DNA of 64,000 bases, taken from positions 4,570,702 through 4,634,701 of the forward strand of contig RPFO01000022.1 in the NCBI GenBank assembly GCA_009746045.1. The letters run 5' to 3'. Positions 9,188 through 18,100 of the stretch are shown piece by piece. Made by a program: the position numbers and the translations under genes. Positions within the stretch are counted from its first letter, which is position 1, and each line of letters begins with the position of its first letter. The notes under the pieces were generated by a model. It saw nothing but the letters and a program-made list of their open reading frames with translations, did no database searches and was not told the origin of the DNA. Source of the stretch: Mesostigma viride (taxonomy: Eukaryota > Streptophyta > Mesostigmatophyceae > Mesostigmatales > Mesostigmataceae).

Positions 9188-12100
9188 TCAGTTCCAGCGC
9201 TTGGCGTTCTTGTTCTGCTTCCCCTTGGCGTTATTTGCCTGGTAGCTCTGCGCCTTCTGCTTCTTGATAGCCAGCTTCTCCGCCTGACCAACACACGCCC
9301 ATGCACAAGGCGAAGAGGAATCATGACAAAAAAGAGAGCGTGAGCATCTCCGCCTGACCAACACACCGATATGCATTACATGCGATCCGAACCACCGCCC
9401 CCGCCAACCTACCCCCCCAATCACCAAAGTACCGTGCAACATGCAAAAAACAAAAACCAACTACAAAAGAATGCATGCAAGCGTCCCTTCTCCGCCTGAC
9501 CAAGAGAGCAAGTGCCACACGCAAGTTGCGGCCCAAGGAATATGACAGCCAAAAATGTGACTGAAACATGACTAGGGTATATACGCAGATTATATAATGG
9601 CAGGATCGAGCTACCAGGGTGACGGTCTTCCAGATATCAGGCCAGCGCTGGATGTCTCATCGATACCACTCAGTGGCCCCCTCACCTTGGACGAATTGCG
9701 ATTCGCCAAGATGTTCTCCCCTGATGCCCTCTCTCACGTTTTCTCCCCATTAATTCTTCCTTATTCCCCCCTCCTCCTCCCCCCACACCTTAGTCTCGGC
9801 CTCGATGTTCTCCTCCACCACCTCCCCCCCGATGTCTCAAATACTGCCATGCGCCCATACCCGCCTTGGACATCCTGGATGTGGCCTTGCTCTATTACTA
9901 TCATTGGTGTGATTAGCATTATTAACAGCAGCGTCATTAAGAGATGTGGCCGCTCACCTTGGACATCTTGGACTTTGCCTTGATGTTCTCCTTCTCGATC
10001 TCCAGCGCGGCCGCCTCGCGCTCCGCCTCCTTGGCGGCCACCGTCTCGTTCTTGTACAGGTAGTACTGGTGGCCGGCACAGGATGCAATTACGGGGCGGG
10101 TGACAGCAACAACAAGAGGAACCACAGCACGCACAGGGCGCATTCGCGAGGATGCCATCAGCGATAAGAAATACGAATTGATAGGGAATACGGCAAGCAC
10201 ATGACACATTTATCCGGTGGATGAAAGCAAGCACAGGACACAATCGTCACCCTCTTAGTGGACAACCTTGAAACCCTAGCACATCTCACACTCACAAGGC
10301 ATGTCACCGATCACCGTACCATGTTTTTTCCCAACTATAGTCGCAGAAATACCCCCCCCCCTCTTCCCCCTCTTTACATCATAGTCCCTTTTGTAGCTCA
10401 AAACCCACAATCACCCTCCCAGCCCACGTTGCAGTTACAGTCCATCCCCCCCGCTCCTCACCGCCCAACCCCACCCTCACTCACGTCATGCTGAGCCTTG
10501 CCGTCCACCACCTTCAGACCCCGACACATCCAATTCATGAACTTGGCCATTACAACCACACAACCACGCCCCCCCCACTCATTTCATAGTCCCCCTTCTC
10601 GTTGACCACCTTTGGACCATCAAAACAAACAAGTCATAAGCACGGCCGTCATCATAACACACAAAAATACGCCCATCGCTGGCCCCCTGGCTATCAGCCC
10701 CGCACCACTCCATATTGAAACACTACTCACGTCATAGTCACCCTCGTAGTCGACCACCTTGGCGTCCCGGATCTCCACCACGCGTGTGACGATCTGGCGC
10801 AGGAAGTAGCGGTCGTGCGAGACGGCCACAACGCTGCCCTCATACGAGCGCAGTGCCTCCTCGAGCATCTCCTTGGTGGGGATGTCCAGGTGGTTGGTCG
10901 GCTCGTCCAGCACCATCAGGTTGGCCTTGGTCACCATGAACTTGGCGAGCGCCAGGCGCGCTTTCTCACCACCAGACAGCCACTCAACCTTCTTGTGGAC
11001 CTCCTCGCCCTTGAATTGGAACCGGCCCAGCAGCGCCTGGGGATGGGGGGCCGAATCGAAGAAGCGTTTTAAGTTGTTGAGACAAGAAAGTCCCAGAGAG
11101 CCAAAAGGAGCCTACCAAAGGGACCAATAGGGGACGGATGGGGGGCGAAAGGGGAGGGAAAGGGGGACCGAAAGGGGACGGAAAGGGGACGAAAAGGGGA
11201 AGGGGGCGAAAAGAGGAAGGACAGGGTGTTTGGCACACAAGAAGGATGTGGCGAGGGTCCGGCCAGCCAAAGGTCGGATGGGCGGCACCAGGCTAACGAG
11301 GCCACATCAGGCAAGGGAGGGCAGACCAAGCCTGCGATGCTTCTTGTGGTGCATCAATCCAGGATGGAGGTCGCTACCCAATGACAGGGTTTGTATCGCG
11401 TGCCAGGGTGCTCCGTGACAGTTACAATTCTCAAACGCTAAAGAACATAAATAAAACATAATATTTAGGCCTAGGAACATATACTCTTCCAAGGGAGGCA
11501 TGTGAATGAATGAACCTCTTCTCGGACATGGTCAGGTACCATTGTTCGACTCCATGCAGGAAACCAATCGATGGTTGAGACGTAGCCCTGGCAGAGCACT
11601 CCCCGTTGCAAGGGTATACAGTGCCTGCGTCATCCGTCTGTGATGCACTACAGCTGGTCTGCAGGGTGGTATGGCAAAGTGGCCAGTGGCCTGCTGTCGT
11701 GGCCTGATGTATTGGCCAAGAGTGAAAGAGTGCTGCACCAAATGTAAGTACCTTCTACACATGCGGCACAAAACCTGTGCCAGGAAGCCAAGGAGCAGAC
11801 AGGTGAGCACGGCAGCCTATCGTGCAAAGGGAAGGCTGAGATCTGTTAAGTACCGTACTTGGCTCTGGAGGGAGGGAGGGGGGGAGGGGGAGCCGACACA
11901 GAATGACGGGAATCGGAATACATTAAGCTGGATTTATTCTGCTCGATTTTTTCTCCCTGACTCATTCTGCTGTAACCCTTTCCGTGCGTTTACATCTGCT
12001 GGATTCCTTCTGCAAGACGTTTGTTCAAGGAGATGGCATGGTCGCCCGCCCTACTGCCACACCGCCCTACTGCCACACCACCCTACTGCCACACCACCCT

Positions 12101-15100: not shown

Positions 15101-18100
15101 GGGGGCGGAACAAGCCGCGGACAAGTGTACTCTCCTCACCTTCAAATCATTACATCCACCCACACCCACGCCCTAACGCTTTCCAAGGCAGCCACATTAT
15201 TAAGCCGGCAGCCCCCCACCTGGTTTGCAAGGAAACCGTTAAGGCGGTTGGAATCCACTTATTCTAGTTGCACTGCCCACAACCACACCAAGGAGCACAA
15301 GCTGCTCCTTCCTGCCCCCCCCCCTGTACCCCCAGAATCCACCTTGTTGCACCTCTGGTTGAGCAACGTTCGATCGTGCGAGACAATACCCATCAGGTGG
15401 ACCCATTGCTCTCTGCTCCATGCATCGCCCACCCACCCACCCACCCACCCACCCACCCACCCACCCACCCACCCACCCACCCACCCACCCACCCACCCAC
15501 CCACCCACCCACCCACCCGCCCGCCCCCGCCCGCCCGCCCGCCCGCCCGCCCGCCCGCCCGCCCGCCCGCCCGCCCGCCCGCCGCGCCGCCCGCCCGCCC
15601 GCCGCCCGCCCGCCCGCCCGCCCGCCCGCCCCGCCCGCCCGCCCGCCCGCCCGCCCGCCCGCCGCCGCCCGCCCGCCGCCCGCCCGCCGCCCGCCCGCCC
15701 GCCCGCCCGCCCGCCCGCCCGCCCGCCCGCCCGCCGCCCGCCCGCCCGCCCGCCCGCCTGCCCGCCTGCCCGCCCGCCCGCCCGCCCGCCCGCCCGCCTG
15801 CCCGCCTGCCTGCCCGCCCGCCCGCCTACCCGCCCGCCCGCCTACCCGCCCGCCCGCCTACCCGCCTGCCCGCCCGCCCACCCACCATGCATACACCCGA
15901 GACAAGCATGGCAGGCTACTGGCTGCAAAGGGCAGCCGGGTTGCCAAGCTTCCCGCGCACCCACCCTGTTGCACAGCCCGTTGAACAAACTCTACGTCAT
16001 GTGAGGCAATAACCTTCGGCGCGCGTCACCCCTCCCCCATTGCGCCCTCACTCCCCACCCACCCAGCCACAACTAACCCCGCACACTCATGTGCCCACAC
16101 TAACCTTGCTGCACAGCTGGTCAACGAACTCCCGCTCATGTGACACAAACAACATCGGGATGTCGAGGCTACCTCCATCGCACCGTTCCTTTCTCCCACG
16201 GACCAGACCACCCACATGTACCTACACACACATGCCCCGCACCCACCTTATTGCACAGCTGGTTGAGGAACTCCCGATCGTGCGAGACGATGACCATCGG
16301 GATGTCCAGCCCCCGCAGGTACCCCTCCAGCCACGTGATTGCGTCCAGGTCCAGGTGGTTGGTCGGCTCGTCCAGCAGGATCAGCTCCGGCTCCTGGAGC
16401 AGGACTTTACCAAGCGAGATGCGCATCTGCCACCCCATGGAGAAGGAGGCGACGAGCCGGTCTGCGTCGTCGGGCGTGAAGCCCAGCGTGGGAAGGATCT
16501 TGTCAATTTTGCGGTCGATCCTGTCGAACGGGGTGGAGGAGGGAAGGAGGGGGGAAGGAGGGGGGAAGGAGGGGGGAAGGAGGGGGGAAGGAGGGGGGAA
16601 GGAGGGGGGAAGGAGGGGGGAAGGAGGGGGGAAGGAGGGGGAAGGAGGGGGGAAGGAGGGGGGAAGGAGGGGGGAAGGAGGGGGAAGGAGGGGGGAAGGA
16701 GGGGGAAGGAGGGGGAAGGAGGGGGGAAGGAGGGGGGGAAGAGGTGGAGCAGGGGGGAACGGAAGGCCAGCATAGCAACGTTAACAAGGGGCAGGGGGGA
16801 AAGCAAAGCGTGGGCAGAACCTTGTCAATCCTGCGGACAATGCAGGAGGTGGGGAGGGAGAAGAGGGGAAAATTGGGGTCGGGTGAGGGCAGTCAACGAA
16901 AGTACGTCAATGGGGAGCGGGGGAAAGCAACCACGCCAACTGGAATGCGATTACACCAATTTTGATCCGACTAGGTTGTCATCAGTTCTCAAATTGTCAA
17001 AATTGTCACTTTATTCATGCCGGCGGACTACCTACGGACTGCTTGACGCGGATTCGCCGGGCTGCAAGTTTGGTAACTTACCAAAGTCGCAAGCCGTTGC
17101 CGCCGCGCCATTTTCTACTTCTTTTCGCACATGGCTTGCGTTGGGTTCATCGACGCTGGTCGACGGTGCAATCCGACGGCGGAGAATAAGTTCGCCACAG
17201 CACAGCGCGACGCAAGGGCTCTTTTCCATGTACAACTTGAGATGCAAAGTCCGCATCGCTGACCCGAAATTCCGTCCAACACCGCCGTACAGTACTACCA
17301 GTCAACCGCTTATCTGCCTTTTAACCGTCGAATGCGCAATCGATCTAGTTGTTGCTGTTGTTGTTGCCCACGCCGCACACAGGTAGCGGAGATTTGGAAA
17401 CGGCGCAATCGATCTAGAAACATCTCCGCGACACTTCCGTGACTTCAGTACTTTCCGTCACCCTTGACATGTTGTCGTACAATAACACAAATTTATGCCG
17501 ATAGAAACTCGCCTCCAAACATATATCTCGATGGAGGCATGCCTATTATTAAATTTCAAGGTACCTCTAATTAATCTCGGCCCCCGCCCTCTGCTAATTT
17601 GCTAATTTGCTAAAAAAGAGCCAATTTTGATCCGACTACACCGGCGACTGGCTAATTTAACGTACGTAGATTGACATATTCATTGCACATGTTCGTACAA
17701 GTCCACCGCCGTCGCCTTCTGCTGCAGCGCCTCCCATTCATCGTGCTACCAAACGCCAATACGAGCACGACCAGAACATGATGAAAGACTGGCTATTGAT
17801 AACCCACGCACCCGTACAGGTCCACCGCCGTCGCCTTCTGCTGCAGTGCGTCCAGCTCGTCCAGCAGCGCGGTCATGCGCGCCATGTCCGACGTGGCACC
17901 CTCCAGCTCGCCCTCGATCTCCGCCGTGCGCTTCTGCACGGCGAGCGCCTCGGAGAAGACCGAGGCCAGCTCCTCGCGCACTGTGCGTGTGCCGTCCACG
18001 TCGAATTCCTGGGTCAGGTAGGCCACCTGCATGCGGTCGTTCGCACGGATGACCTGGGGGGGGGGGGGGAAGAGCGGAGGAGGTTGAGTTCAGGGAAGAA

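Follow-up and report, generated by a model that had tools for sequence, protein, structure and literature searches.

The stretch of DNA analysed in this work, referred to as the window, comprises 64,000 nucleotides of contig RPFO01000022.1 (labelled C777 in our analysis) from Mesostigma viride and contains, at 9188..20706 on the minus strand, the gene of a plastid-type ABC-F ATPase (ABCF) whose introns hold copies of their own flanking exon edges. The gene model, derived from reading frame, GT-AG sites, Pfam matches and the published Mesostigma viride protein P0001 (Mesvir1 label), consists of nine exons: 20706-20200, 18053-17812, 16520-16247, 14745-14407 and 13087-12908 (exons 1–5), followed by 12200-12120, 11036-10731, 10065-9958 and 9283-9188 (exons 6–9). 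All eight introns exhibit GT-AG sites, and joining the exons yields 711 codons (stop included) in an unbroken frame; beginning at the end of exon 1, P0001 is identical to the model through to the stop codon. A sequence-only reading of this gene had claimed that at least five of the eight introns carry copies of the adjoining exon end, and we analysed this by comparing the last and first 60 nt of each exon with all eight introns after masking of microsatellites, using off-diagonal introns, the reverse strand and dinucleotide shuffles as controls. Scores against the own intron were 35, 34, 18, 20 and 21 for donors 2, 3, 4, 7 and 8 and 24 and 29 for acceptors 2 and 4, compared to control maxima of 15 (off-diagonal), 13 (reverse strand) and 16 (shuffles): a match far above controls is thus present at seven of the 16 boundaries and in exactly five of the eight introns, and unrelated introns, named beforehand as the telling comparison, stay at or below 15. 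With exon-only queries, the remaining nine boundaries gave no match; a weak match in intron 5 (score 14) stops short of the boundary and was not counted, and acceptor 8 has two short copies, comprising 9–11 exon nt, that become visible only with intron bases in the query. When the exons were tiled in 40-nt pieces, matches were confined to approximately 80 nt from the exon ends, with the exception of one weak interior tile in exon 4 (score 14). The observation of exon-edge copies within their own introns is therefore confirmed.

The ABCF copies form ladders of one to four blocks each with 69–93% identity, plus one exact 17-nt match, and all lie on the minus strand; where an exon tail has been copied, the donor and some bases of the intron often come with it. 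Intron 2 contains one donor-side copy, representing the end of exon 2 (-42..-1) without the splice site (17694..17734, 93%, made up of exon bases only), and a copy of the start of exon 3 with the acceptor region (16794..16863, 69%, partly pyrimidine-rich, exon-only score 24). Three donor copies are present in intron 3: 16082..16167 (-63..+22, 77%, GTTAGT), 15953..16019 (-54..+12, 73%, GTGGGT) and, past a long G-rich 4-bp repeat array, 15331..15397 (-55..+12, 79%, GTGGAT). Three or four can be counted in intron 4, amongst them 14274..14329 (70%, with flank homology to other units), 14202..14227 (-24..+2, 88%) and 13921..13944 (-18..+6, 92%, GTGGGT), together with acceptor copies at 13517..13546 (77%) and 13166..13205 (-7..+33, 88%). 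The three donor copies of intron 7 are found at 10577..10612 (81%, AT replacing GT, with flank homology), 10479..10514 (78%, GTGAGT) and 10243..10270 (exon part, 86%), and those of intron 8 at 9864..9889 (85%, GC replacing GT), 9785..9825 (exon part, 76%) and 9673..9719 (77%, GTGAGG). Intron 8 also holds the two acceptor copies with few exon bases that escape the exon-only query, 9487..9503 (-8..+9, 17 of 17 nt) and 9343..9375 (-22..+11, 85%). The sequence-only reading had further stressed that donor copies lie downstream of the true donor and acceptor copies upstream of the true acceptor: this is true but uninformative, since copies within an intron cannot be placed otherwise, and the informative part is the strand bias, which does hold (ABCF reverse-strand maximum 13, and none of 70 boundaries matched on the reverse strand in the set of 35 introns described below). 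Inverted copying of boundaries is rejected on the same figures.

Intact counterparts of these ladders exist elsewhere in the genome, where Tandem Repeats Finder detected arrays starting inside exons. In the chaperonin gene CCT3 (L039, array CCT3_5513), the exon end ..RTLTKLRAK plus donor is repeated, with the first unit within the exon, so that ten donors (the true donor and nine copies) follow at exact 48-bp steps; eight of them read GTGAGC and two GTGCGT, and the frame is open through all units and past the array end. In the published CCT3 protein P0121, RAK is immediately followed by HAADEC, which corresponds to a model using the first donor. Another CCT gene (C1468, L045) exhibits a 76–80 bp unit, made up of 20 nt exon and 56 nt intron, in 3.9 copies that are 98% identical, and a 40-bp unit is duplicated (two copies) over an AAG/GTGAGG site in an open-frame stretch outside profile hits, in contig C887 as well as in the near-identical C1641. 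These young arrays resemble an initial stage that, after decay, would give ladders such as those of ABCF. The CCT regions of C887 (L040) and C1641 (L048) are approximately 97% identical, with about 3 kb extra in C1641 and differences in minisatellite copy number, and are probably haplotypes. Within the window, a 27-bp tandem repeat at 58241-58349 overlaps the end of a long open frame (58335-59150, minus strand) and may be another boundary-spanning array.

The analysis was extended to 40 modelled introns from 14 gene labels, chosen by gene family rather than at random and including ABCF. Chaperonin CCT genes of the same genome were found by profile search and their DNA then retrieved; a set of 35 introns with exact junctions, ABCF included, was enlarged by five introns, of which four belong to genes of the tRNA-synthetase family and the fifth to a proteasome gene (the sole usable proteasome intron). 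Junctions are backed by published proteins in ABCF and CCT3, the others being our models. One of 23 CCT junctions lacked a sound model and was excluded, as were exon pairs whose profile gap fell outside -25..12; C1413b (crude scores 21 and 29) was also kept out of the modelled introns, C1413a was retained with a weak splice score, and an ABCF paralogue at C2045 was left out as too little of it matched for a model. In the crude comparison of CCT exon ends with the adjacent stretch, 16 of 84 queries scored at least 16, compared to 0 of 84 on the reverse strand and 0.9% against the stretches of other genes. With exact junctions, donor copies are present in 11 of the 35 introns and acceptor copies in five of them (6 of 27 and 3 of 27 when ABCF is removed), with matches to introns of other genes at 0.19% for donors and 0% for acceptors of 1040 comparisons. 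A boundary copy is present in four of the five added introns. For all 40 introns, exon-only queries find copies of 14 donors and seven acceptors, in 18 introns altogether, 13 of these outside ABCF (donors 9/32, acceptors 5/32); windows straddling the boundary from -30 to +30 find 19 donors and 11 acceptors in 24 introns (14/32 and 7/32 without ABCF). The exon-only counts serve as the headline figures and are safer because straddling windows can score through their intron half alone, as for the acceptor of ABCF intron 3. Judged by straddling windows, introns with a boundary copy are richer in internal duplication (0.269 versus 0.126, p=0.014) and longer (median 913 versus 696 nt, p=0.029). Boundary copies are thus a real trait of Mesostigma introns, seen in every sampled family with more than one intron. 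Contig C2011 of the assembly (G000), which lies outside the window, carries uninterrupted open frames with matches to several tRNA synthetases, to a protein of the Cpn60 family (full-length) and to one of the proteasome family, which suggests a bacterial contaminant.

Duplication is not restricted to boundaries: of 746 intron-interior windows of 60 nt, 180 match a same-strand copy elsewhere in their own intron, compared to a reverse copy for one and a match in the intron of another gene for two, and copies were found for none of 139 exon-interior windows. Dispersed elements are rejected as the source, given the matches to other genes' introns of 0.19% and 0% of 1040 at boundaries and 2 of 746 for interior windows. 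Outside ABCF, the rate varies: four stretches of the window had direct copies within 1 kb for 0/64, 2/51, 87/407 and 41/241 windows, with 0, 2, 26 and 14 inverted copies, respectively, and a 10-kb stretch picked arbitrarily had 23 direct and seven inverted copies from 157 windows. Taking the interior-window rate of each intron as expectation, young copies are no more frequent at donors than inside introns (4 observed versus 4.0 expected; 5 versus 4.6 and 2 versus 3.4 at other cut-offs), and at acceptors they are scarce, with counts of 1 versus 4.0 (P=0.03), 3 versus 4.6 (P=0.23) and 1 versus 3.4 (P=0.06). Across all ages, donor copies are in excess (straddling 19 versus 8.5, P<0.0001; exon-only 14, P=0.01), and acceptor copies are not (straddling 11, P=0.17; exon-only 7). 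The natural reading is that the birth of a copy is not aimed at the boundary and that exon copies stay recognisable for longer, because the coding exon that serves as reference does not move. Amongst 23 older copies, a set that leaves out the copies of both young arrays, differences to the exon amount to 14.5, 13.1 and 26.7% at codon positions 1, 2 and 3; the approximate doubling at the third position is what would be seen were the copy to drift freely and the exon to change only silently. The difference between donors and acceptors is not significant (p=0.11 and 0.13). The spliceosome finds acceptors by scanning for the first AG, and were this difference real, such scanning would make upstream acceptor copies the more harmful ones.

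We consider short local tandem duplication across exon-intron boundaries, followed by drift, to be the best explanation for these copies, and probably the correct one. The introns of Mesostigma viride would be remodelled by short direct duplications, possibly caused by break repair or slippage, some units of which would span an exon-intron boundary by chance. Because the protein must not change, the outer original site would remain in use, and the copy of exon tail and splice site would end up inside the intron. A young event would appear as an intact array, the copies would then drift with microsatellites expanding between them, and the end state would be a ladder of diverged look-alike splice sites in which the exon half, measured against a coding exon that is held fixed, would outlast ordinary intron duplications. 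The lack of copies from exon interiors (0/139) and the purely direct orientation are as tandem geometry demands. Homology over the whole unit gives a mixed picture: the young arrays (C1468, CCT3_5513) show it, as do introns 4 and 7 of ABCF, and the best copy per donor intron has a significant flank in 6 of 15 cases. The interpretation offered by the sequence-only reading, boundary-centred tandem duplication with later satellite growth, is hence partly supported: tandem duplication gains from the intact arrays elsewhere and from the flank homology in introns 4 and 7, but the boundary-centred part finds no support as a bias of birth, given that interiors duplicate too and young copies are equally common there, and survives in the weaker form that older copies end near the splice site more often than simple decay predicts.

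It is this last point that keeps our confidence in plain duplication with neutral decay from being higher: the explanation fits the window counts and not the flank and edge data, all of which weigh against it. Ungapped identity after the copied donor, measured in the 23 older copies, is 0.72 at +1..+6 and 0.41 at +7..+12, and then falls to about the control level of 0.28. ABCF introns 4 and 7 and C1468 pass flank tests, but most others fail, and exon parts at 92–94% identity lack a significant flank in ABCF intron 2, CCT3 (donor 2835) and C777. Aligned over 5424 bases, the near-identical contigs C887 and C1641 are separated by 105 substitutions and 19 indels. Decay was simulated with real donors, 17 real introns without donor copy and the measured indel/substitution ratio: at 75–95% identity, the flank was detectable in 83–94% of cases and homology ended by +16 in 10–23%. 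With tripled indels these values became 66–83% and 25–35%, and random sequence at the same identities gave 71–94% and 16–36%. Taking the best copy per intron, the observed donors exhibit a flank at p<0.05 in only 6 of 15 cases and end by +16 in 9 of 15, and for acceptors the corresponding values are 2 of 6 and 4 of 6. The chance of at least nine of 15 ending by +16 is 0.0002 at a rate of 17%, 0.015 at 30% and 0.04 at 35%, and that of at most six of 15 flanks is 0.0002 at 83% and 0.035 at 66%. In addition, most interior duplications at 88–95% identity, found in five introns, form full-unit arrays, whereas at the same identity the donor pairs are isolated blocks, none of four reaching a block/distance ratio of 0.9, although this filter placed long arrays, such as both young donor arrays, outside the donor class. 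The frequent loss of the intron half of the unit is therefore not fully accounted for by duplication with decay. Three causes would fit: an even faster turnover of intron starts, a refreshing of the copies from the exon, or an anchoring of some copying at the splice site.

These data are the main reason why we retain, as a doubtful but still serious possibility, that exon tail and splice site act together as a unit that is repeatedly duplicated into the adjacent intron or homogenised with copies already there. If this were true, introns would grow from their edges and carry long-lived decoy ladders that the splicing machinery must pass. As one specific form, ordinary tandem duplication could be followed by gene conversion or template switching from exon to copy, making the copies older than they look and preserving similarity only in the constrained block of exon tail and splice site. 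The distribution of edges favours this, as in 15 of 16 BLAST pairs (with a filter maximum of +60) the homology stops between -5 and +16 relative to the donor and the exon-side edge in the same pairs spreads from -23 to -72, and so does the lack of significant flanks beside exon blocks of 92–94%, which simple decay under-predicts. The sample is small, however, and the blocks of about 20–70 nt are short, which is little for gene conversion; moreover, the copies in C1546a form a perfect 47-bp tandem pair with differences to the exon, pointing to duplication of copy from copy. Overall, we regard refreshment from the exon as unlikely.

Copying of exon tail and 5' splice site anchored at the splice site itself, for example through breaks at transcription- or splicing-linked structures close to the G-rich intron start, would explain why the copy edge lies close to the donor, why 10 of 13 ladders have a first copy that begins at 52–90 nt of the intron, and why old donor copies exceed expectation (19 with straddling windows and 14 with exon-only queries, versus 8.5). 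Against this, young duplications show no enrichment at donors and the unit edges of the young arrays, at +18 and +56, are not fixed at the splice site; we know of no mechanism for duplication anchored in this way and think it improbable that it is the source of the copies.

We give little credence to the copies being functional decoys or alternative exon ends under selection. No unit of the CCT3 array interrupts the reading frame, and 17 of the 23 older copies, taken over all genes, retain GT, so that the surviving donors noted in the sequence-only reading are indeed common but by no means universal. Retention is in line with neutrality: of 32 copies, 27 keep an intact GT compared to 24.4 expected from the identity of the exon part, and AG in three of six compared to 4.0. 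Differences at codon positions 1 and 2 (14.5 and 13.1%) are exceeded at most two-fold at the third, and the published ABCF and CCT3 models take the outermost donor; thus, neither GT/AG retention nor codon positions give a sign of selection for decoys. A duplicated exon under coding selection is rejected by the same three position values and by the fact that only exon parts are copied, and a duplicated, mutually exclusive exon by the presence of AG directly before the copy in only three of 13 contexts inspected by eye. Intron gain by AGGT tandem duplication is rejected as well, the copies being short blocks inside longer introns. Finally, an assembly artefact or chance similarity is hardly credible: arrays are hard to assemble, and the published genome stems from long reads that were later polished, but assemblers do not make diverged copies, null rates are 0.2% and 0%, and one boundary duplication is present in both near-identical contigs.

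Beyond the ABCF gene, the window contains a trinucleotide ACA array of approximately 475 units (3998-5425), a satellite with a 401-bp unit (2.7 copies, 96%; 42262-43339), two regions with open frames matching reverse transcriptase (RVT_1; 1338-2993 and 37458-38468), which are probably retroelement remains, and an open frame matching N-terminal glutamine amidase (PF09764; 60414-61352).

Introners are known to shape introns genome-wide, and unlike these the Mesostigma copies are private to each intron, with matches to other genes of 0–0.2%. The phenomenon is best filed with minisatellite-like tandem duplications, in this case running across splice sites and perhaps with some anchoring there. Small tandem duplications have a described break-repair mechanism (Schimmel et al. 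2021, PMC8355091), and minisatellites and duplications of this type are, as in Mesostigma, head-to-tail, on the same strand, tens of bases long and nearly identical when young; unlike in the systems described there, the Mesostigma units cross boundaries in several genes, and what remains of them is ladders of sites resembling the true splice site. Intron gain has also been reported to arise from tandem duplication across splice signals, in a potato RdRp gene (PMC4974935), where the duplication likewise crosses an intron-exon boundary, and in Drosophila (PMC2891723). Splice signals are duplicated in these cases too, but in Mesostigma the copies lie inside an existing intron, no new intron results and the outer site is apparently used. 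In Lipomyces, 5' donor duplications of 4–7 nt are proposed to form nested introns, or stwintrons (PMC7138796): a 5' donor is again duplicated inside an intron, although the Mesostigma copies comprise about 20–70 nt of exon plus donor and occur in ladders. Amongst titles and abstract openings of the papers listed, with few subscription journals covered, no account was found of boundary copies pervading the introns of one genome. The Mesostigma viride genome paper reports a mean intron length of 1142 bp, the second longest of the species compared, and attributes it to repetitive elements, which make up 30.1% of intron space; its main text contains no word beginning with "splic" (PMC6947507).

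Gene prediction and read mapping may also be led astray by copies of coding ends within introns; false splice calls between repeats are a documented fault of aligners (PMC10632439). Of the 40 sampled introns, 18 carry a copy of one of their own exon edges. The array in the CCT3 chaperonin gene provides a natural experiment on splice-site choice: the sequence of the site hardly separates the true donor from its copies, and therefore position or order must do so. The ladders, in turn, would constitute a dated record of how the introns of Mesostigma viride have lengthened.

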